57,058 nucleotides of DNA, from the NCBI GenBank assembly GCA_016872175.1, contig VHBA01000009.1:1-57058 (forward strand), in the 5' to 3' direction. Origin of the DNA: Sphingomonadales bacterium (GTDB lineage: Bacteria; Bacteroidota; Bacteroidia; NS11-12g; UBA955). The translations under genes and the position numbers were made by a program. This document shows, piece by piece, positions 18,799 to 54,940 of this stretch (its first letter is position 1; each line of letters starts with the position of its first letter). The notes beneath the pieces are model-generated. The model did not search any database and was not told the origin of the DNA. It saw only the letters and a program-made list of their open reading frames with translations.

Positions 18799-19802
18799 AC
18801 GCCGCTGAATTGAGACAAAAGCCGTATGTCGTTGTGAAACAGATCACGAATATCCGAAATACCATATTTAAGCATGGTAATTCTATCTATTCCCATACCA
18901 AATGCATAACCCTGGTAAACTTCCGGGTCTATATTACACGCTTTTAGTACGTTGGGATGAACCATACCACAACCCAGCACCTCAAGCCAGCCGGTTCCTT
19001 TTGTTAATCTTCTTTTTTCTTCTGTGTCGGTACCTGCCCAAATGTCCATTTCAGCGCTGGGCTCTGTAAAAGGAAAATAACTGGACCTAAACCTTACCTG
19101 CGTTCCTTCTCCAAAAAACTGCTGAACGAAATAATACAAGGTTTGCTTAAGGTCGGCAAAAGAAACATCTTTGTCTATGTAAAGCCCTTCAATCTGGTGA
19201 AAAAAGCAATTGCTTCGGGCACTGATAGCTTCATTTCGGTATACACGACCAGGCATAACCAGGCGAATAGGCGGGGTTCTTTTCTCCATCTCTCTGATCT
19301 GCACGCTGCTTGTATGGGTTCTTAACACATGATTACCTATAAAAAACGTATCCTGCATATCGCGCGCCGGGTGGTCTTCCGCAAAATTTAGCGCACCGAA
19401 ATTATGCCTGTCATCTTCTATCTCCGGACCATCTGCAATATCAAAACCCAGTGAATAAAAAATGTCGCAAAGAGCATTCTCAACGATTTTTAAAGGATGA
19501 GAACTTCCAAAATGTGAAGCATTTATGGGTAAGGTAGTATCGAAGGTTTGCGCTGAGCCTGAATCAGCTGAAAATTTTTCTTTAAAAACCCTAAAAACCT
19601 CTTCCAGCCTTGATTTTAAAGCATTAAGCGGTTTACCTACAGCCTTTTTTTCTACGCCTGGCAGGTTTTTGAAAGCATCCATCAATACCTGAATTCTTCC
19701 TTTTGAAGAAAGGTAAGTCAAACGAAACTGCTCCAGTGCGGCGGCATCCGCAAAATCCGGCGATACTGTTTCCTTTTCTATTTTTTCTATTTCTTCAAGC
19801 AT
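18795..19802 (-). CDS. pheS: Phenylalanyl-tRNA synthetase alpha subunit
   Basis: Charges tRNA-Phe as part of the alpha2beta2 enzyme. 335 residues: N-terminal coiled coil (about 1-90), then class II motif 2 (GRVYRNEAISARSNCFFHQIEGLYID), FRSSYFPFTEPSAEMDIW, and motif 3 (GYAFGMGIDRITMLKYGISDIRDLFHNDIR). The substrate-selecting residue region around the GxGxxR motif reads normally (GMGIDR). A CAAAAGTA (minus strand TACTTTTG) lies eight bases before the ATG and is the probable -7 box of the four-gene operon. The beta subunit gene is not in the window. Confidence 0.95.
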   Translation of the reverse strand: MLEEIEKIEKETVSPDFADAAALEQFRLTYLSSKGRIQVLMDAFKNLPGVEKKAVGKPLNALKSRLEEVFRVFKEKFSADSGSAQTFDTTLPINASHFGSSHPLKIVENALCDIFYSLGFDIADGPEIEDDRHNFGALNFAEDHPARDMQDTFFIGNHVLRTHTSSVQIREMEKRTPPIRLVMPGRVYRNEAISARSNCFFHQIEGLYIDKDVSFADLKQTLYYFVQQFFGEGTQVRFRSSYFPFTEPSAEMDIWAGTDTEEKRRLTKGTGWLEVLGCGMVHPNVLKACNIDPEVYQGYAFGMGIDRITMLKYGISDIRDLFHNDIRLLSQFSGV

Positions 19803-20184
19803 TGTGATTACAAAAGTAAAAATAACCTTGGTTTTTTGTTACATCAACTTTTCCCTGTTGTCCCCAACCCAAATAATTAATATAATATAATCATTTTAAA
19901 AAAATAATATTATATATTAAATACAGCTGTGTGGAAATGTGGAATATATAATTTTATTTAGTTAATATATTTTGCTGTTTCGTCTTAAAAATCAATAACA
20001 GTAAACTTTTCAGTGGTTTTTTTATTTTTTAATTTACTTTATTTGCGTAGGGTATTATTAAATAATTGTTTGGGTTTTTCGGTTAAATACCACCTCTTTT
20101 TTACACTGTTTTGCATATTGACATAGTATGTGTTTTAATTTTCACGTGGAACAGAATCTTTGTTCACGCCTTATAATAGACGTT
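19803..20184. other. AT-rich gene-free gap with a parS-like site; candidate origin-proximal region
   Basis: 382 bases between pheS and the Big_5-type lipoprotein gene, with no plausible reading frame. Contents: the pheS -7 box (19811-19818, minus); a stretch from 19871 to 19923 with a single C at 19892 and no G, a possible duplex-unwinding element; a tandem TGTGGAAA/TGTGGAAT at 19930-19945 that resembles degenerate DnaA boxes; T-rich tracts; and a parS-like site at 20138-20153. No exact DnaA box (TTATCCACA) was found. An origin of replication is possible but not shown. Confidence 0.45.
20138..20153. other. parS-like site 1
   Basis: Core CACGTG with a GTGGAACA right arm; 13 of 16 bases match TGTTTCACGTGAAACA. 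It is intergenic, so coding constraint does not explain it. Confidence 0.65.
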
Positions 20185-21636
20185 TCAAGGTTTTTCCGAA
20201 GCTTTTATATCTAAATCAACACCCATATTTTCTTTAATTTTCAAAACAGGTAATTTTTTATAGTATTCCCCGTAACTGGGTTGCACGTCATTTATAACAG
20301 GACCATCCAATATTTTATTTCTATTGGCATCTTTATAATAGAATACATCATGATCGCCTGATAAAACCCAAAGGCGAATTTTTTCATTAGGAAGGATGTA
20401 ACCGGTATGTTTTTCTCCTGTATTCTTGTTTGTTATATGGATATATATTTCAATTGTTTCTTTATTGGTAATATTTAATGATGTATAGACAGGGATGTTT
20501 GTTTTAAAAGTGTCTTTTATTTCCTTTCCATCCGTTGTCATAAAATGAAAAGGTATTCGTATACTTCCTGTTTGGTTATTGCCAAACACTATCTGAATAA
20601 TATTATTTTGTTCGGTTTTGATCTCTGCTTTTAAAAAATTTTTATCTTTTGATAAATAATCTATGGTCTTTTCTGTCGGTGTTAAGATTGATTTGTTTCC
20701 AATCAAATGTATTTCCTGGAATGAATCTTTTAGAAAAGCGGGTTTCTTCCAGTGGTAAGACAATATATCTTTTTTGTTTTCAGGTTTTTTTGAAACGATA
20801 TAATTATTGGTATCCAGTGATAAAATAAAATAAAAGACAGAAGCACTATCTCCAATAAAAGTGTCTTTATAATTGATTATTTCTCTGCCATAAGGTGGAG
20901 GTAGATTACTTCCATAATAACCGAAACGTTCTTTTGAGTATTTTATTAAACCTATTTTTTGTGGTCCGGTATTATATAATAACACAATAGCACTGTCTTG
21001 TGTGCTTGTGTACGAAACCCCTGCAGCCTCACCCTTGTTCCACTGATTATCGCCATTCAAATCATTAAAAGCAACAACCCATAAAGAATCTTGCGGTAAC
21101 CCGGGGATATAAAAACGCATTGATTTATTAAGCAAACCTATATACGGGTTAGGTCCGACGGTTTTTATTTTAACTTTTTGTGTTTTTGGCTCTTCAACAA
21201 ACAAACATTTTCCTTCAACATTAAAAGTATCTAACGTTTTTCCTGTGCTAAAAAGAAAGGGCTTGTAAGTGCCCTGGTTGCCCTCATTCAAATCTTTAAC
21301 ACACTCGTTAAGTTGAACACTGTAGGTAGTGTTTTCTGAAAGGCTATTCTCAGTAAATTCAATTTTTATATAATTGTTTCCTGTTTTGTATGCAGGTTTT
21401 GTTTTGAGAGCGGGAGAAACAATTATCTGTTCTTTGGCATTGCTTACTGTTATGTTTTCATCAAACTTAAACACCACTGTTTTTGGTTTTAAGCCGATGC
21501 TTCTTTCTGTAGGGGTGGTTAAGACGATCTTTGGTGGGGTAATATCTTTACTTCCGCCTGTAGGCGTCACCGGATTGGCACATTGCCAAAGCAGCGCAGC
21601 GCAGGAACAAGCAATTATATATCCGTTTCTAATCAT
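20185..21636 (-). CDS. Ig-like (Big_5) domain lipoprotein
   Basis: 483 residues with a signal peptide and lipobox LLWQC (Cys19), then PVTPTGGSKDITPPKIVLTTP, a start shared by a family of Bacteroidota outer-membrane lipoproteins with an N-terminal Big_5/Ig-like domain (about 30-130: VFKFDENITV, YSVQLNECVKDLNEGN). The middle contains VVAFNDLNGDNQWNKGEAAG and the end contains HDVFYYKDANRNKILDGP, both resembling EF-hand-type calcium loops. Function unknown. Visibly richer in A+T than neighbouring genes. It overlaps mnmG by four bases (ATGA) and is the last gene of the operon. Confidence 0.8.
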   Translation of the reverse strand: MIRNGYIIACSCAALLWQCANPVTPTGGSKDITPPKIVLTTPTERSIGLKPKTVVFKFDENITVSNAKEQIIVSPALKTKPAYKTGNNYIKIEFTENSLSENTTYSVQLNECVKDLNEGNQGTYKPFLFSTGKTLDTFNVEGKCLFVEEPKTQKVKIKTVGPNPYIGLLNKSMRFYIPGLPQDSLWVVAFNDLNGDNQWNKGEAAGVSYTSTQDSAIVLLYNTGPQKIGLIKYSKERFGYYGSNLPPPYGREIINYKDTFIGDSASVFYFILSLDTNNYIVSKKPENKKDILSYHWKKPAFLKDSFQEIHLIGNKSILTPTEKTIDYLSKDKNFLKAEIKTEQNNIIQIVFGNNQTGSIRIPFHFMTTDGKEIKDTFKTNIPVYTSLNITNKETIEIYIHITNKNTGEKHTGYILPNEKIRLWVLSGDHDVFYYKDANRNKILDGPVINDVQPSYGEYYKKLPVLKIKENMGVDLDIKASEKP

Positions 21637-47479: not shown

Positions 47480-48445
47480 ATGTCAACAATCCAGTGGCTT
47501 GATTTTGAAAAGGATATTGCCGAGCTGCACGAGCAGCTGGCCAAGGCAAAGGATACCCACGAAAAGGGCAAACTGAACATGACCGATATGATTCAGACCC
47601 TGGAATCCAAGATCATGGAAGCGCAAAAAGCCATTTACAGTGGCCTTAGTGGCTGGCAAAAAGTGCAAATCAGCCGCCACCCCGAACGACCGTACACCCT
47701 TGATTATATTGAGCATATTGCCACCAACTTTATTGAACTGCATGGCGACCGCCAGGTGAAGGATGACAAGGCCATTGTGGGCGGTTTTGGGCAGATTGAC
47801 GGCGAAACCTACATGATTATTGGTCAGCAGAAGGGCCGAAACACCAAGCAGCGGCAGTACCGTAATTTTGGCATGCCCAACCCCGAGGGTTACCGCAAGG
47901 CGCTGCGCCTGATGAAGCTGGCGGAGAAATTCAACAAGCCCGTTATCACTTTTATTGACACCCCCGGTGCCAGTCCCGGGCTGGAAGCCGAAGAGCGCGG
48001 GCAGGGCGAAGCAATTGCCAAAAACCTGTTTGAAATGGCTACGTTGAGTGTTCCTATTGTTTGCATCGTCATCGGCGAAGGTGCCAGCGGCGGTGCGTTG
48101 GGAATTGGTGCGGGTGATAAAGTGCTGATGATGCAGTACACTTGGTATAGTGTAATTTCACCTGAGAGCTGCTCCAGCATTTTGTGGCGCACCTGGGACA
48201 AGAAAGAACAGGCTGCCGACGCGCTGAAACTGAGCGCGGAGGATATGCTGAAAAACAAATTAATAGACGGCATTATTCAGGAGCCGTTGGGTGGCGCCCA
48301 CCACGATCCGGAAATGGCCTATAAAAACGTGAAAGCTGCCATCGTAAGAGAAATGAAAGCCCTTAAAGCCCTCAAAACCGACGAACTCGTAAAACAGCGC
48401 ATTGAGAAATTCAGCGCCATGGGTGTGGTGGAGGAGGAAGAATAA
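47480..48445 (+). CDS. accA: Acetyl-CoA carboxylase carboxyltransferase subunit alpha
   Basis: Alpha subunit of the carboxyltransferase that makes malonyl-CoA. 321 residues from ATG 47480 ([20 protein letters not shown]). Seen: [81 protein letters not shown], and [18 protein letters not shown], the crotonase-fold oxyanion loop. An upstream ATG (47441) is in frame but adds an unrelated N-terminus. It is monocistronic, accD being elsewhere. It is the last housekeeping gene before the polysaccharide locus. Confidence 0.95.
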
Positions 48446-48495
48446 CGATAGTTGACAGTTAACAGTTGATAGTCTATAGTTGGGGTTTTTTCCTG

Positions 48496-48547
48496 CCGGT
48501 TGGTCTTTACGCAGCGCAGCAGAGTGAGACCGACCGGACTTGCTGCT
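48496..48547. repeat. Imperfect inverted repeat, 11-bp arms
   Basis: Arms CCGGTTGGTCT and AGACCGACCGG pair with one G-T mismatch around a 30-base loop containing CGCAGCGCAGCAGAGTG. Possible transposon remnant or rho-independent structure for accA; no T-tract follows. Confidence 0.5.
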
Positions 48548-48602
48548 CCATCCTCGTTAACGAATCTCCTGTAAGCAGGGCAATGGTAGGGAAACGCAAT
48601 TT

Positions 48603-48627
48603 TCATGCTGAGCCTGTCGAAGCATGA
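48603..48627. repeat. REP-like short inverted repeat
   Basis: TCATGCT and AGCATGA flank GAGCCTGTCGA. The TCGACAGGCTCAGCATGA-type sequence recurs as an interspersed element in many bacterial genomes; copy number here cannot be determined from one window. Confidence 0.5.
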
Positions 48628-48702
48628 CTAGCCCATTAAACCATTCACCAATAAACAATTAAACCAACCCTTAAGAAACAACCCCCAAATTCTTCACAAT
48701 TG

Positions 48703-48733
48703 TTTGCAAATCCGATTTCTTTCCCTAGTTTCG
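48703..48733 (+). promoter_or_regulatory. Promoter of the polysaccharide-locus regulator
   Basis: TTTG (48703-48706), a 19-base spacer, and TAGTTTCG (48726-48733): both elements and the spacing fit the Bacteroidota consensus. The expected transcription start, near 48738, falls inside the palindrome at 48733-48765. Confidence 0.7.
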
Positions 48734-48765
48734 CATTATTGAGTAATAAAACTACTCAATAATGC
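48733..48765. promoter_or_regulatory. 13-bp perfect palindromic operator over the promoter
   Basis: GCATTATTGAGTA (48733-48745) and TACTCAATAATGC (48753-48765) are perfect inverted repeats around a seven-base centre. The element begins on the last base of the -7 box, covers the expected transcription start and ends three bases before the ATG of the winged-helix gene. It is best read as the binding site of that regulator (autoregulation); as RNA it would also fold into a hairpin before the start codon. Confidence 0.72.
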
Positions 48766-48768
48766 TCC

Positions 48769-49308
48769 ATGATCGAAACCCTGATTTCATCCAAAACCCG
48801 GGTAAAACTGCTGTTGAAGTTCTTTCTGAACGCCAACGCCACTGCGTATTTGCGCAACCTGGAGGAAGAGTTCGGGGAAAGCACGAATGCTATTAGGCTG
48901 GAGCTGAACAAGTTTGAGGAAGCGCAGATGCTTACCTCTGAGCCCGTGGGCAAGAAGAAAATTTTCAAGGTCAATACATCGCATCCACTCTTCCGTGATT
49001 TGCACAACATTGTGCTGAAATATGTGGGGTTGGACCAGATTGTGGAGCACGTGATTCGCCGTTTGGGTAACCTGGAAAAGGTTTACCTCACGGGGCATTT
49101 TGCCCGTGGCATGGACAGCGAGATTATTGACTTGGTATTTGTGGGACAGATAGACAAAACCTACCTGGCCCAATTGGTGGAAAAAGCGGAGGGAATGATA
49201 GGAAGGCATATTCGCTATATTGCGTTTACACCCGAGGCATTCTCGACGGAAAAAATAAGTGAAAACGGAACCCATCCCTTATTGCTGTGGAGCAGCGATA
49301 AGAACTAG
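48769..49308 (+). CDS. Winged-helix transcriptional regulator with degenerate nucleotidyltransferase-like domain
   Basis: 179 residues. Residues 1-80 form an ArsR-like winged helix (MIETLISSKTRVKLLLKFFLNANATAYLRNLEEEFGESTNAIRLELNKFEEAQMLTSE). Residues 95-175 look like a minimal nucleotidyltransferase fold: LEKVYLTGHFARGMDSEIIDLVFVGQIDKTYLAQLVEKAEGMIGRHIRYIAFTPEAF. The GS motif reads GH and only one acidic residue of the DxD pair is left, so it is probably inactive, perhaps a ligand sensor. Proteins of this build often open Bacteroidota surface-polysaccharide loci. It likely binds the palindrome just upstream. Confidence 0.78.
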   Translation: MIETLISSKTRVKLLLKFFLNANATAYLRNLEEEFGESTNAIRLELNKFEEAQMLTSEPVGKKKIFKVNTSHPLFRDLHNIVLKYVGLDQIVEHVIRRLGNLEKVYLTGHFARGMDSEIIDLVFVGQIDKTYLAQLVEKAEGMIGRHIRYIAFTPEAFSTEKISENGTHPLLLWSSDKN

Positions 49309-49384
49309 CAGGGACAACGTTTTCAAACAAACCCCGTAGGCCACGCTATGTGACTGAAGGGGCGGAGCCGTATATACATGTAGT

Positions 49385-50500
49385 TTGAATAGCACAAAGG
49401 ACTTTCGGTTTGCCAATCTAGATGGATTGAGATTTATAGCAGCAATGTTTGTGGTTATAAATCATACTGAACAGATTAGTGGGATACTTGGATTAGATAA
49501 TTATTTTTCTTGGAGAGGAATAGAACAAATAGGCAAGTTTGGTGTAATGTTGTTTTTTTCCTTAAGCGGTTTTCTAATTACTTTTCTTCTTATTAAAGAA
49601 AAAGAAAAAACAGGAACTATAAATATTAGAGCATTCTATATTAGAAGAATTTTGCGTATTTGGCCACTATATATTGTAATAGTTTTGTTGGCATTGTTTT
49701 TCTTTCATTACTTCAGTATATTTGATTTGAAAAATGGAGACAAAACAGTTTTTTATGATAATTTAGGGTTTAAAATGTTGTTATATTTATTAATGCTTCC
49801 CAATCTTGTTTTATTGGTTTTTGGTTCCATTCCGTTTGCAAGCCAAACCTGGTCCATTGGATCTGAGGAGCAATTTTATATTATATGGCCATTGATTTTA
49901 AAACGATTTAAAGTTACCATTTTAAGTTTGTTGGGGGTTATACTTTTTTATCATCTTTTCATTTATTGTTTTCAGAATTTTGTACGCTCCAATATATACA
50001 GAGAATATTGCGTGGCTCTTATGCATACAGTGCCATTGGATTTGATGGGTTTGGGAGGTATCGTAGCCGTAATTGTTTATGAAAAAGACAAATTATATCA
50101 GTTATTCGATAAAATATTCGGTGCAATTTGGGTTCAATGTGTTTTAATAACGACTTTATTAGCACTGCTTTTTTCGGGATATCAGTTTCCTTATTATAAC
50201 TATTTGTTCTATGGAATTTTTATGGCTTCTCTAATTTTTATACTTGTAAGAGGTAAAAACTTCAAATTATTGGAATCGAAATTATTTTCTTTTGGTGGAA
50301 AAATATCTTACGGAATCTACATGTGGCATGCACCTGTAGTAACAATGGTGCTTAAACTATTGGTTTTGGTTGGTTTTTATAACAAGCTTTTTGCTTATCC
50401 TTTTATTATAGTTTTAACCCTATTCGTAGCTTGGATTAGTTTTAGATTTTTAGAAACTCCATTTTTGAGATTAAAACAGAAGTACAGCATTGTATCTTGA
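49385..50500 (+). CDS. Membrane acyltransferase (acyltransferase 3 / OafA family)
   Basis: 371 residues from TTG 49385. Integral membrane O-acyltransferase with about ten helices. The N-terminal signature NLDGLRFIAAMFVVINHTE (R-x-x-D-GLR...H) and FFSLSGFLITFLLIKE...YIRRILRIWPLY, plus a late SYGIYMWHAP, are diagnostic. It would acetylate or otherwise acylate a glycan at the membrane. Much richer in A+T than flanking genes (about a quarter G+C in the stretch 49621-49680), which suggests recent transfer. It lies 76 bases after the regulator and six before the UpxY-like gene. Confidence 0.88.
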   Translation: MNSTKDFRFANLDGLRFIAAMFVVINHTEQISGILGLDNYFSWRGIEQIGKFGVMLFFSLSGFLITFLLIKEKEKTGTINIRAFYIRRILRIWPLYIVIVLLALFFFHYFSIFDLKNGDKTVFYDNLGFKMLLYLLMLPNLVLLVFGSIPFASQTWSIGSEEQFYIIWPLILKRFKVTILSLLGVILFYHLFIYCFQNFVRSNIYREYCVALMHTVPLDLMGLGGIVAVIVYEKDKLYQLFDKIFGAIWVQCVLITTLLALLFSGYQFPYYNYLFYGIFMASLIFILVRGKNFKLLESKLFSFGGKISYGIYMWHAPVVTMVLKLLVLVGFYNKLFAYPFIIVLTLFVAWISFRFLETPFLRLKQKYSIVS

Positions 50501-50506
50501 AACTTC

Positions 50507-51004
50507 GTGCATTGGAATGTAGTATACACGGCAAGCCGGCAGGAGAAAAAAGTGGCTGTGATGCTGGAACGGCATCATATACAGCACTACCTGCCGTTGG
50601 TAAAAAAATTACGTTTATGGAGCGACCGCAAAAAGTGGGTGGAAATGCCCCTCTTTAACGGATACATATTCGTGCAGCCCAAACCCGCGGAGCGAGACCA
50701 GGTGCTGCAAATCCCGGGGGTGGTAAAATACCTCAAATACAACGGTGCGGATGCAAAGGTGTCATCCCCTGAAATAGAACTGATTCACAGCCTGATAGAA
50801 AAGGGCTACCACCTGGAATCCGGCGCTTCCGGCAGTTTGCGTAAGGGCGATAAAGTGAAGATTGAGCAGGGTCCACTTAAAGGCATAGAAGCCGAAGTGC
50901 TGAAAGATACCGATGGCAGCGAAACAGTCTGGATTGCGTTTGAAACGATATCGCAGGTGGTGAAGGTGGTAGTTCCGAAAGACATACTGAATGCCCATGG
51001 ATAA
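50507..51004 (+). CDS. UpxY-type NusG-like transcription antiterminator
   Basis: 165 residues from GTG 50507. NusG N-terminal domain (NVVYTASRQEKKVAVMLERHHIQHYLPLVKKLRLWSDRKKWVEMPLFNGYIFV) and a C-terminal KOW-type domain (LRKGDKVKIEQGPLKGIEAEVLKDTDGSETVWIAF). It is not housekeeping NusG but a paralogue; such UpxY proteins in Bacteroides keep RNA polymerase going through long capsule operons. Here it is the second gene of the run, not the first. It overlaps the next gene by eight bases, favouring local action on this operon. Confidence 0.88.
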   Translation: MHWNVVYTASRQEKKVAVMLERHHIQHYLPLVKKLRLWSDRKKWVEMPLFNGYIFVQPKPAERDQVLQIPGVVKYLKYNGADAKVSSPEIELIHSLIEKGYHLESGASGSLRKGDKVKIEQGPLKGIEAEVLKDTDGSETVWIAFETISQVVKVVVPKDILNAHG

Positions 51005-52520
51005 GAAAAAGGTATTTTTTTGGCTGCTGCTTTGCATTTCCATTGTTGCCAAGATATTCTTGCTAGGTAAAGGTTATCTGTCATTTCCCGATGAGGTAAG
51101 ATATGTTGCAGCCCAAAATTTTATTGAGGAGCTAAAACAGGGCAATTTAAACTCGGGTATAGGTCAAATTTTCGAGGTACAAGGCAGACCGGGCTTGGTA
51201 ATTGCTTCCATACTGCCTGCCGGGGTGCAGATTGTGTTGTCCAATTATTTGATGATTCCCTATAATTCTGCCACCTCAGCGTGGGTGATTTACATTTTTA
51301 ATTTGGTTGTTTATTTGCTCATCCTCTCGAATATTTACCATTTAGCATTGAAGCTGGGTTTAAATGTATATCAGGCGCTATTGGTTTTGATTTTATATTC
51401 CGTTTCTCTTAATGGTTATATATACCTCAGACACACCTTTCCGTATGATACCTCTTTACTATTGGGGCTGCTTGCATTTAATTTTCTGCTGGGAAAAAAC
51501 CCGAAAACACTGCGTTCGTTGGTATTTCAGGGCCTATCCATTTCTGCCTGTTTTTTGGTCTATCCCGGCTATTATCCGCTGGTTTTGGCTTTTGGGTTAT
51601 ATTGGTTTTATCAAAACAGAGAGTCCTTCAAAAGCACAATTTGGATCAAACAGGGTTTGATTTTTTCCACTGCATTTGTATTGCCTTTCCTAATCATTGA
51701 AGGGTTGGCCGGTATGTGTGGAAAATCATATTTTTTTGATGCCCGCCAACTCAGCCAAACCATTATTGAAGGGAGTTTTGAAGAGGGTTTTTCTTTTTTG
51801 TTTAAATACTTATGGCAGGTAGAAAATGGTGTGGGCCTGATTTATATTATGGGTCTGGCAGCCCTATTGTTCCTGGTACTCAAAAGGTCCTTAAAAACCA
51901 AAACCGATCCCGGACATGCGGAGTTTCTTTTCATATCTATGTTAATTGGATTTGTTATTTATGCAGGCCTGGTATTTTTTATGCATAAAATGGTTTTTTA
52001 CGGAAGAATTATCCATCAGTTTATGCCCTTTATGGCATTATTTACGGTCTATGGGTTATTTGAAATTATTCAAAGTGAAAAATTTAGAAAACAAATCACT
52101 TGGGCCTTGCCAATAGCCCTTTTAGGGCTATCCACTCCTGCCTACAGCCAATATTCAGGCATGGAATATCCACGGGATTTCTTTAACCGAGTTAACCGCA
52201 ATGGAAACCTAAAAGCAAGAGAAATTGAATACCGTTGTCAATGGCTGAAGAGTTTGCCCAGGAATGAAAAGTTTGCTGATAGCAGCAACATCAAATATCC
52301 TAAAATCATACTGGTTAACTGGTGCCACCCAGCAGGCGACTCCTCTGTGAATGGTAAAATTTGGAATACTTTTGATCTGGCTCCAGGGCAAAAAGTAATT
52401 GCCAAAGCCCCCCATTATATGTCTTATATCGGTTATCAATTTGAAGGTGCCAATATCCAGCAAAGACAAAATACTGCATCAAATCCACCGATGCTGGAGA
52501 TATATGCTGAATTAAAATAA
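50997..52520 (+). CDS. Multi-pass membrane protein, GT39/ArnT-like glycosyltransferase candidate
   Basis: 507 residues from ATG 50997 (ATG 50991 also in frame). About ten to twelve transmembrane helices, then a C-terminal soluble part from about residue 390. The first periplasmic loop carries FPDEVRYVAA, similar to the Asp/Glu-containing motif (xDExxY) of GT-C enzymes such as ArnT and protein O-mannosyltransferases. That fits transfer of a lipid-linked sugar on the periplasmic side, but the donor is unknown and membership in GT39 is inferred from one motif. Overlaps upxY by eight bases. Confidence 0.68.
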   Translation: MDKKKVFFWLLLCISIVAKIFLLGKGYLSFPDEVRYVAAQNFIEELKQGNLNSGIGQIFEVQGRPGLVIASILPAGVQIVLSNYLMIPYNSATSAWVIYIFNLVVYLLILSNIYHLALKLGLNVYQALLVLILYSVSLNGYIYLRHTFPYDTSLLLGLLAFNFLLGKNPKTLRSLVFQGLSISACFLVYPGYYPLVLAFGLYWFYQNRESFKSTIWIKQGLIFSTAFVLPFLIIEGLAGMCGKSYFFDARQLSQTIIEGSFEEGFSFLFKYLWQVENGVGLIYIMGLAALLFLVLKRSLKTKTDPGHAEFLFISMLIGFVIYAGLVFFMHKMVFYGRIIHQFMPFMALFTVYGLFEIIQSEKFRKQITWALPIALLGLSTPAYSQYSGMEYPRDFFNRVNRNGNLKAREIEYRCQWLKSLPRNEKFADSSNIKYPKIILVNWCHPAGDSSVNGKIWNTFDLAPGQKVIAKAPHYMSYIGYQFEGANIQQRQNTASNPPMLEIYAELK

Positions 52521-52528
52521 ATTATTTC

Positions 52529-53218
52529 ATGAACTACACCGACCTCATCATCCAGAAAATACGCCAAAACCGCATCAGTACCACGGAGGTGGCGGACTGT
52601 TTGGATAAAACCGGCTTGCTTTCCGGCAAGCTTTACGCCTTGAACCCACGCCATTTTCGGGTGGGCAGGGTTAAATGGACTTATGCCATCAATGAAAGCA
52701 ATTGGGAACATCACCGACAGATTGCCGATATTGATTCCGGTTTGATTATCATTACAGAGCCGTTCAATTGCGGTGAGCGCGCCATTTTTGGGGATTTGGT
52801 AACCAAATACCTGATGCTGTACCGCCAGTCTGAGGCCCTGGTGGTACTGGGCAAGTTGCGCGATATTCCCCGGCTGATTAAGGAAAATTACCCGATATGG
52901 CTGGAAGGAGCATCTCCCATCGGTTGTTTCAATACAAAAAACGAAAACGACCTGGATGACGCCACCACCGCAGCCCGCAGAGAATTGTATGACGACAGCA
53001 TCGCCGTGTGTGATGACAGCGGCGTGGTGATTGTTCCCAAAAGCATGCACAACGAAGCCTTCCTGAAAAAGCTCGACTGGATTGAGGAGCAGGAAGACAT
53101 CTGGTTTGACTGCATAGACCGCCGCAAATGGAGCACCTACGATACCGTTTGCCTGAAAAAACACCTCGACGAGCCCGAAAGCAACCGATTCAACCCGGAA
53201 CAAAACCCACTCGTATAA
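52529..53218 (+). CDS. RraA/HMG-aldolase-fold protein
   Basis: 229 residues. Landmarks of the RraA-like fold: FNCGERAIFGDLVTKYLMLYRQSEALVVLGKLRDIPRL (the G-D-L ... G-x-x-R-D substrate/metal segment), PIWLEGASPIGCFN (PV-FxxGxxP) and DDSIAVCDDSGVVIVPK (GDxVVADDxGVVVIP). In family members the R-D pair helps bind Mg and a 2-keto acid for aldol cleavage or decarboxylation; others are RNase E inhibitors. In a polysaccharide locus a role in making or breaking a keto-acid substituent is plausible, but not proven. Eight bases from the previous gene, two from the next. Confidence 0.78.
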   Translation: MNYTDLIIQKIRQNRISTTEVADCLDKTGLLSGKLYALNPRHFRVGRVKWTYAINESNWEHHRQIADIDSGLIIITEPFNCGERAIFGDLVTKYLMLYRQSEALVVLGKLRDIPRLIKENYPIWLEGASPIGCFNTKNENDLDDATTAARRELYDDSIAVCDDSGVVIVPKSMHNEAFLKKLDWIEEQEDIWFDCIDRRKWSTYDTVCLKKHLDEPESNRFNPEQNPLV

Positions 53219-53220
53219 CC

Positions 53221-54015
53221 ATGGAAAGCAATCAGATAAGCCGTATTGTGAATAAAATGAACCAGAACGGCTATGCCATTGGGAAAAACATGATCAACAC
53301 GGAGATTTTGGCAACCATTGCAGAAAGAATCGATGGATATTATGAAAAAGACCATGCGCGTTTTGGTCGCGATTTTCTGATGGAGATCAATGAACTGGAG
53401 CAGGTTCGCAATGTGATTGAATACGATGATATTTTTGTGAAACTACTGGAAGAGCACATGGAAATGGATGCTGTACTGGAGGCTTTGCTCCACGAGCATC
53501 ATATCATTCATAACTACAACCTGATTCGCTTGTTCCCGGATGTTAAGACCAACATGCTGGGTCATCAGTGGCACCGCGATGTGTATTATTTCGGTCCGGG
53601 AATCCGCACGGCGGTAAACATCATGATTCCGCTTCAGAAAACCACCATCGCCAACGGTGCTACGGAGTTGATTCCCAAATCGCACCTACACAAAGATTTG
53701 CCCGATGCGGATTACATAGAAAAAAACAAAATAGCAGCCGAACTGGAACCCGGGGATGTGCTGTTTTGCGATGCCGCCACCTTCCACGCTGCCGGAAAAA
53801 ACACAACAGATAAACCCCGCACCATCATTGTGCTAAAACATACCTTATCGTTTTTTACCCAGCAATACGACATATGCCGGGCATTGCCGGATATAGAGAA
53901 GTACAGCGACCATATCAAAGGGAGGCTGGGCTACTTCGTGCGGGTGGCAGAAAATATGGAGCAGTTTCGGGTTATACCGGAAAACCGCAGGTATAAATGG
54001 CCCATCAGATACTAA
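53221..54015 (+). CDS. Phytanoyl-CoA dioxygenase (PhyH) family protein
   Basis: 264 residues from ATG 53221. Fe(II)/2-oxoglutarate dioxygenase with the HxD part of the facial triad in GHQWHRDVYYF and the distal His in FCDAATFHAAGKNTTDKPRTII, the Arg being the 2-oxoglutarate anchor; GATELIPKSHLH and LEPGDVLFCD match PhyH. Oxygenases of this group hydroxylate small molecules, including nucleotide-linked or CoA-linked substrates. The longer reading frame (from 53128) overlaps the RraA-like gene and is not used. Two bases from the previous gene, four from the next. Confidence 0.87.
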   Translation: MESNQISRIVNKMNQNGYAIGKNMINTEILATIAERIDGYYEKDHARFGRDFLMEINELEQVRNVIEYDDIFVKLLEEHMEMDAVLEALLHEHHIIHNYNLIRLFPDVKTNMLGHQWHRDVYYFGPGIRTAVNIMIPLQKTTIANGATELIPKSHLHKDLPDADYIEKNKIAAELEPGDVLFCDAATFHAAGKNTTDKPRTIIVLKHTLSFFTQQYDICRALPDIEKYSDHIKGRLGYFVRVAENMEQFRVIPENRRYKWPIRY

Positions 54016-54019
54016 AACC

Positions 54020-54940
54020 ATGAAAGTAAGCATCATAAGCCCGGTTTATAAGGCAGAAAAGATATTGCCTGCACTGGTTCAGCGCCTGGATGCGGTTATA
54101 AAAAGCCAGCAGTGGGATGCAGAAATCATATTGGTAGATGATAGGAGCCCCGACGGTTCTTGGGAAGTTTTACAATCACTGGCAGCACAATATCCTGCTG
54201 TCAGGGCATTTCGGCTATCCAAAAATTTCGGGCAGCATTATGCCATTACCGCGGGCATCAGTGTGGCAACTGGCTCTGTTATGGTTATCATGGACTGTGA
54301 CCTGCAAGACAGGCCCGAAAACATTCCGCTGATGCTGGAAAAATACCATGAAGGTTATGATGTGGTTTGTACCCTAAAGGCCCAAAAGAAGTATGGTTTT
54401 TACCGAAAAATAACCAGCGACCTTTTTTTCTTTGTGGTAAACAACCTGTCCGATGTGAAACTGGAAAAGAATCTGGGAACCATGACCCTTATTAGCCGCA
54501 AGGTTGCAGGAGCATTTACAGGTATTCGCGATTATCACCGCCATTCATCCATGATCATTGCCTGGCTGGGTTTTCGCCGCGGTTTTGTGCAGGTAACACA
54601 GGATGAGCGTTTCGAGGGGAAATCATCCTATACCCTGAGAAGGTTATTCAGACATGCTGTAAACGGGGTAATTTCACAATCCGACAAACTCCTGCGGTTG
54701 TCCATTGGTTTTGGTCTGGTTTCCTTCTTGGCTTCCCTGCTGGGAGTAGCTTATATCATAATAAAAAGCTTTTTTGTACAATTTGAAATGGGCTGGCCGT
54801 CTATCGTGGTGCTCATTTTATTCACCACAGGTATTATTCTGCTGATGCTGGGCATTGCCGGTCTGTATATCGGAAAAACCTTTGAGCAGGTAAAAAACAG
54901 GCCTTTGTTTATCATCGCAGAGCAAACAGAAGAAGCATAG
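54020..54940 (+). CDS. Polyprenyl-phosphate glycosyltransferase-like GT2 with two C-terminal membrane helices
   Basis: 306 residues. GT-A domain (VSIISPVYKAEKILPALVQRLDAVI, ILVDDRSPDGSWEVLQSLA, RLSKNFGQHYAITAGISVATGSVMVIMDCDLQDRPENIPLML) with the DCDLQD acidic motif, then two helices (about 233-257 and 264-290). This is the GtrB/DPM1/ArnC architecture: transfer of a sugar from a nucleotide donor to a polyprenyl phosphate at the inner membrane. Its product could feed the GT-C-like protein two genes earlier. The stop TAG is fused to the GTG of the next gene (TAGTG). Confidence 0.9.
   Translation: MKVSIISPVYKAEKILPALVQRLDAVIKSQQWDAEIILVDDRSPDGSWEVLQSLAAQYPAVRAFRLSKNFGQHYAITAGISVATGSVMVIMDCDLQDRPENIPLMLEKYHEGYDVVCTLKAQKKYGFYRKITSDLFFFVVNNLSDVKLEKNLGTMTLISRKVAGAFTGIRDYHRHSSMIIAWLGFRRGFVQVTQDERFEGKSSYTLRRLFRHAVNGVISQSDKLLRLSIGFGLVSFLASLLGVAYIIIKSFFVQFEMGWPSIVVLILFTTGIILLMLGIAGLYIGKTFEQVKNRPLFIIAEQTEEA

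Follow-up and report, generated by a model that had tools for sequence, protein, structure and literature searches.

The window, by which we mean the whole stretch of 57,058 nucleotides that was analysed, contains a gene for a 179-residue regulator that is preceded by a perfect palindrome and followed by genes of a polysaccharide-type cluster. The features of the locus are the following.

48703 to 48706, + strand: -33-like box TTTG of the regulator's promoter, 23 nt ahead of the TA of the -7 box
48726 to 48733, + strand: -7-like box TAGTTTCG, read from the sequence, with one mismatch to the consensus TAnnTTTG
48733 to 48765, no strand assigned: putative operator, a perfect palindrome with 13-bp arms and a 7-nt spacer (inverted-repeat search and conservation upstream of homologues)
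48738 to 48745, no strand assigned: left conserved half-site ATTGAGTA (column conservation), with the near-invariant GAGTA at 48741-48745
48753 to 48760, no strand assigned: right conserved half-site TACTCAAT (column conservation), with the near-invariant TACTC at 48753-48757
48769 to 49308, + strand: 179-aa regulator with an ArsR-like winged helix (residues ~1-70) and a degenerate MNT-type nucleotidyltransferase domain (residues ~100-175), from AlphaFold2, Foldseek and a profile match
49350 to 49372, + strand: conserved leader element GTGACTGAAGGGGCGGAGCCGTA, with the ops-like 12-mer GGCGGAGCCGTA at 49361-49372; sole exact match in the genome
49385 to 50500, + strand: acyltransferase (PF01757, Pfam), the first structural gene past the leader element
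50507 to 51004, + strand: UpxY-family transcription antiterminator (NF033644, 128.7 bits, cut-off 100)
52529 to 54940, + strand: part of a polysaccharide-type cluster (RraA-like, PhyH, glycosyltransferase family 2)

The first-pass annotation had described two arms pairing without mismatch, and the sequence bears this out: the left arm GCATTATTGAGTA (48733-48745) and the right arm TACTCAATAATGC (48753-48765) enclose the spacer ATAAAAC. No other inverted repeat with perfect arms of at least 13 bp and a loop of 3 to 20 nt was present in the 57-kb window, and none was found in ten first-order Markov windows. In the 2.26-Mb genome the full palindrome is unique, even when up to 3 mismatches are allowed, and exact TGAGTA-N7-TACTCA occurs once. 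A chance origin of the repeat was rejected on account of the Markov windows and of the fixed site upstream of homologues described below. No known RNA family was found in the window. Just 3' of accA (48452-48490), we observed a short self-similar stretch, TTGACAGTTAACAGTTGATAG, with a good sigma-70-like match, the use of which is not expected in this phylum.

A phylum-wide sample of 296 genomes had regulator homologues in 42. For the comparison, homologues were drawn from related genomes, of which 66 of 197 had one, and from named Bacteroidota MAGs; the regions upstream of 129 distinct homologues were compared. As these 129 homologues are related, the counts of sites are not independent. Exact GAGTA-N7-TACTC was found upstream of 109 homologues, as against two occurrences after the stop codon, and at least nine of the ten core bases were found in 121 of the 129 loci, the figure for shuffled sequences being 17 of 2580. 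With spacings of 3 to 12 considered, a spacing other than 7 was seen once. In a second phylum-wide sample, drawn later and including one duplicate, 23 of 26 carried the site. Thus, the search before homologous regulators, on which the first-pass annotation had made its operator depend, came out in favour of the site, whose consensus is ATTGAGTA-N7-TACTCAAT. It is the extent of the palindrome that did not hold: the 13-bp arms are present in the window, but the core kept in the phylum is GAGTA-N7-TACTC. Bases beyond the consensus half-sites vary, the nearest species have 11-bp arms, and the outer arm bases of the window are, by this comparison, lineage-specific. The best site lies 40-213 nt from the start codon in about 20 homologues.

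Some loci were unusual. In the same genus, locus L065 (G004:C8, ~19570-20460) has decayed regulator and UpxY genes, with in-frame stops, and an intact operator core. L062, L064, L066 and L069 encode divergent paralogues with an altered recognition helix (SSNTVRxELN); upstream of these genes the layout differs, with TTG coming after TACTCAA, and L069 has a perfect TACTCAA-N2-TTGAGTA. A contig labelled Candidatus Saccharibacteria (L150) has a regulator and an operator typical of Bacteroidota; a binning error in a public MAG is the probable cause.

Consensus promoter boxes are known from B. fragilis, B. thetaiotaomicron and flavobacteria (PMC7366714, PMC9723704), with the -7 box placed at -12 to -5 (PMC9723704). 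Assigning the box of the window to these positions puts the predicted transcription start at about 48738. At the aligned -7 position, relatives read TATATTTG (L006, L007, L008) or TAATTTCG (L003). The -7 box ends on the outermost G of the left arm. From there the palindrome runs across the predicted start and over most of the 31-nt leader, in agreement with the overlap proposed from the sequence. In about 73 of 121 loci the box TAnnTTTG lies within the palindrome, which then reads GAG[TAnnTTTG]YTACTC. In these loci transcription is predicted to start within the right arm, which gives a median leader of 12 nt; TTG is found 21-24 nt upstream of the TA of the box, the expected -33 spacing, in 53 of the 73, and the offset of 23 nt is the commonest one for TTTG (22 of 73). 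The clade of the window (7 loci, support 99/87) has a spacer devoid of TTTG and a -7-like box 18 bp further upstream. Thus, the palindrome overlaps the predicted promoters with the -7 box either inside it or just upstream and, as read from the alignment, in the window's clade the promoter is shifted by 18 bp upstream with the operator core unmoved. A strand bias of the loop was considered as a sign of an RNA loop and rejected, because the embedded -7 box explains it.

The sampled relatives have about one exact copy of the 12-base site each, nearly always adjoining the regulator gene. Most genomes devoid of the regulator gene are also devoid of the site, the exceptions being G022, G072 and G083. 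In G072 and G083 (L159, L160), which have no regulator, TGAGTAATTTTCGTACTCA adjoins a tRNA gene; these are probably chance occurrences or a terminator, and the G022 site looks like chance too. A regulon of many sites was rejected, since mismatched copies are not enriched: with up to 2 mismatches, the window genome has 34 sites, versus 75 for the reversed control. By these counts, the putative operator is single-copy and not a member of a regulon.

The regulator had no match in Pfam and scored 13 bits with the NCBIfam ArsR/SmtB model NF033788, below its cut-off of 55. An AlphaFold2 model built with 27 homologues had a pLDDT of 89 and a pTM of 0.81. In Foldseek searches its N-terminal half matched ArsR-type winged helices (SqrR, TMt 0.69; BigR, 0.65; SmtB, 0.60), as well as AF1382, and its C-terminal domain matched MntA antitoxins and 2rff (prob 1.00, TMt ~0.55). 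A family profile search also retrieved 2rff (3e-5), in an alignment that places Ile opposite the leading Asp of its catalytic motif SDID. The catalytic GS...DxD motif of MNT proteins is absent from the regulator family: Asp is never found at position 119, which is occupied by Ile, Val, Glu or Gln in 27 of 27 aligned homologues, and the GS motif is mostly lost (Ser at 110 in 3 of 27), while Gly109, Gly114 and Asp121 are invariant in all 27. Because of the loss of the catalytic Asp in every aligned homologue, the domain is probably a sensor rather than an enzyme. The window regulator contains no cysteine, the residue expected of a Cys-based metal or thiol sensor. We found no description of this regulator or of its operator in the literature searched.

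Since the same site precedes the regulator gene across the phylum, it is very probable that the palindrome is the regulator's docking site, and we consider it likely that it acts as the regulator's own DNA operator in a steric autorepression of the operon. A winged-helix dimer would bind ATTGAGTA-N7-TACTCAAT and, overlapping the -7 box or the start, would block housekeeping RNA polymerase. Such a direct block of initiation, already suggested by the first-pass annotation, is supported by the way the palindrome overlaps the -7 box or the start, and the accompanying suggestion of negative autoregulation by the single site per genome. Since the proposed transcription unit begins with the regulator gene, repression would extend from the regulator to the downstream UpxY antiterminator and polysaccharide genes. 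The degenerate nucleotidyltransferase domain would probably sense a ligand, perhaps a nucleotide, leading to release of the repressor.

The same sequence in RNA had been proposed to hide the region before the AUG, that is, to act as a leader hairpin covering the start codon and controlling translation. With a start at 48738, the leader of the window can indeed form a stem of 8 bp whose end lies 8 nt ahead of the AUG (48738-48800, -8.3 kcal/mol), and the core changes are polarised in a manner that suits RNA: TACTC became TGCTC in 14 cases, which preserves a G-U pair, versus one change in GAGTA, which would give C-A. However, in the ~73 loci whose loop contains the box, initiation is predicted in the right arm, so that the left arm would not be transcribed in most homologues, and this disfavours the hairpin. 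The spacing is also held at 7, and outside the core there are no clear compensatory changes, the arm bases pairing little beyond what column composition predicts; such sparse covariation is expected if a protein reads the sequence. The displacement of the promoter relative to a fixed operator likewise favours reading of the DNA by a protein, and we regard the RNA hairpin as quite unlikely. The embedded promoter accounts for the polarity of the spacer; it does not account for the A-to-G bias.

If a protein reads the palindrome, it could in principle do so as an activator or a two-way switch of the MerR type, with repression not its main role, as binding over promoter boxes can remodel DNA and the AT-rich spacer holds the -7 box in most homologues. 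Activation of this sort depends on geometry and would hardly tolerate a position of the operator relative to the promoter that differs by 18 bp between clades; moreover, the spacing from -33 to -7 is ordinary (~19 bp), which makes this reading unlikely. That the palindrome serves another conserved protein, such as a global regulator or a nucleoid protein, with only incidental adjacency to the regulator gene, is highly improbable: a global regulator would need many sites, whereas the exact 12-base site is found about once per genome, nearly always beside the regulator gene, and is mostly missing where the gene is.

Steric autorepression by the regulator would concern more than its own gene. The UpxY gene lies 1.2 kb past the regulator, behind the acyltransferase gene, and a UpxY-family antiterminator is encoded within 1.5 kb downstream in 73 of the 93 homologous loci with enough sequence. 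No intrinsic terminator-like site was found in 48400-51100. Because UpxY and polysaccharide genes follow and no such terminator-like site intervenes, the entire polysaccharide unit, of which the regulator would be the first gene, is most likely under the control of the operator.

A second conserved element lies between the regulator and the downstream genes. Its form is GTGACTGA-n-GGC-GNA-GC-YNTR, and in a few loci it stands between the operator and the regulator instead. It was found beside 58 homologues, with GGC-NNN-GC conserved, T at position 11 of the 12-mer in 56 of 58, and GAA or GGA as the loop in 53 of 58. In L023, L030-L032, L034, L041 and L046 the GNA loop is replaced (AGC, TTT, GGT) and the GGC...GC stem is kept; these replacements could correspond to different UpxY specificities. 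The element also occurs in some polysaccharide leaders devoid of the regulator, where it precedes genes whose predicted products look, by eye from the sequence, like a Wza-type export protein, a sugar transferase and a dehydrogenase of nucleotide sugars; further copies precede genes of different types. The 12-mer GGCGAAGCTGTG is similar to E. coli ops, GGCGGTAGCGTG, and d(GCGNAGC) is an unusually stable DNA mini-hairpin. The RNA fold of the element is ordinary (z 0.51), and for this reason we assessed the element by conservation rather than by folding energy; pairing in the stem that precedes it is only modestly above that of shuffled sequences (5.2 versus 4.0 pairs). In E. coli the ops hairpin has a loop from G4 to A7 and the pair C3:G8 (PMC5995543), and in B. 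fragilis UpxY exerts its action on 5' leaders that precede its gene (PMC7819879). No candidate element for the choice of operon by UpxY was named in the literature searched. By analogy, the leader element is a possible UpxY loading site, which we offer as a lead only.

With the ArsR/SmtB autorepressors SmtB, SqrR and BigR, the regulator shares the winged-helix fold, the small repressor-like size and a palindrome over its own promoter; unlike them, it lacks cysteine, fails the family model, carries a fused nucleotidyltransferase-like domain and has a polysaccharide target. Its C-terminal domain relates it to MntA antitoxins and 2rff. AbiE type IV systems combine winged-helix and nucleotidyltransferase functions, but here the two are fused in one protein. 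The regulator family also differs from MntA and AbiE in having lost the first catalytic Asp of SDxD and, in most homologues, the GS motif, and no toxin-like partner was found among the regulator neighbours examined. Like the capsular loci of B. fragilis, the locus has a UpxY antiterminator gene within a polysaccharide locus; unlike in those, control at the promoter appears to lie with a protein operator. A search of 48300-49300 revealed no inverted repeats of an invertible promoter; the 13-bp palindrome is the only repeat there. With RfaH/ops, the leader element has in common a 12-nt G-G-C-G...T-R motif, with a putative tiny stem-loop, and its occurrence in polysaccharide leaders, but it has a GNA triloop rather than a four-base loop, is preceded by the conserved GTGACTGA and has UpxY, instead of RfaH, as its neighbour.

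Taken together, the two elements may form gates in series, with a repressor made of a winged helix and a dead nucleotidyltransferase reading a nucleotide-type signal at the promoter, and a GNA-triloop ops-like site for the loading of UpxY behind it, in a module controlling surface polysaccharides across the Bacteroidota; we put this forward tentatively. As an autorepressor site the putative operator is of an ordinary kind; the regulator family is undescribed and the constancy of the site across the phylum is unusual. In Bacteroidota other than gut Bacteroides, the control of initiation at polysaccharide loci has been little described. The near-invariant half-sites and their fixed spacing make the regulator easy to test and the regulated loci predictable from sequence alone, and the leader element is a concrete candidate, open to test, for the signal by which UpxY antiterminators pick their operon.
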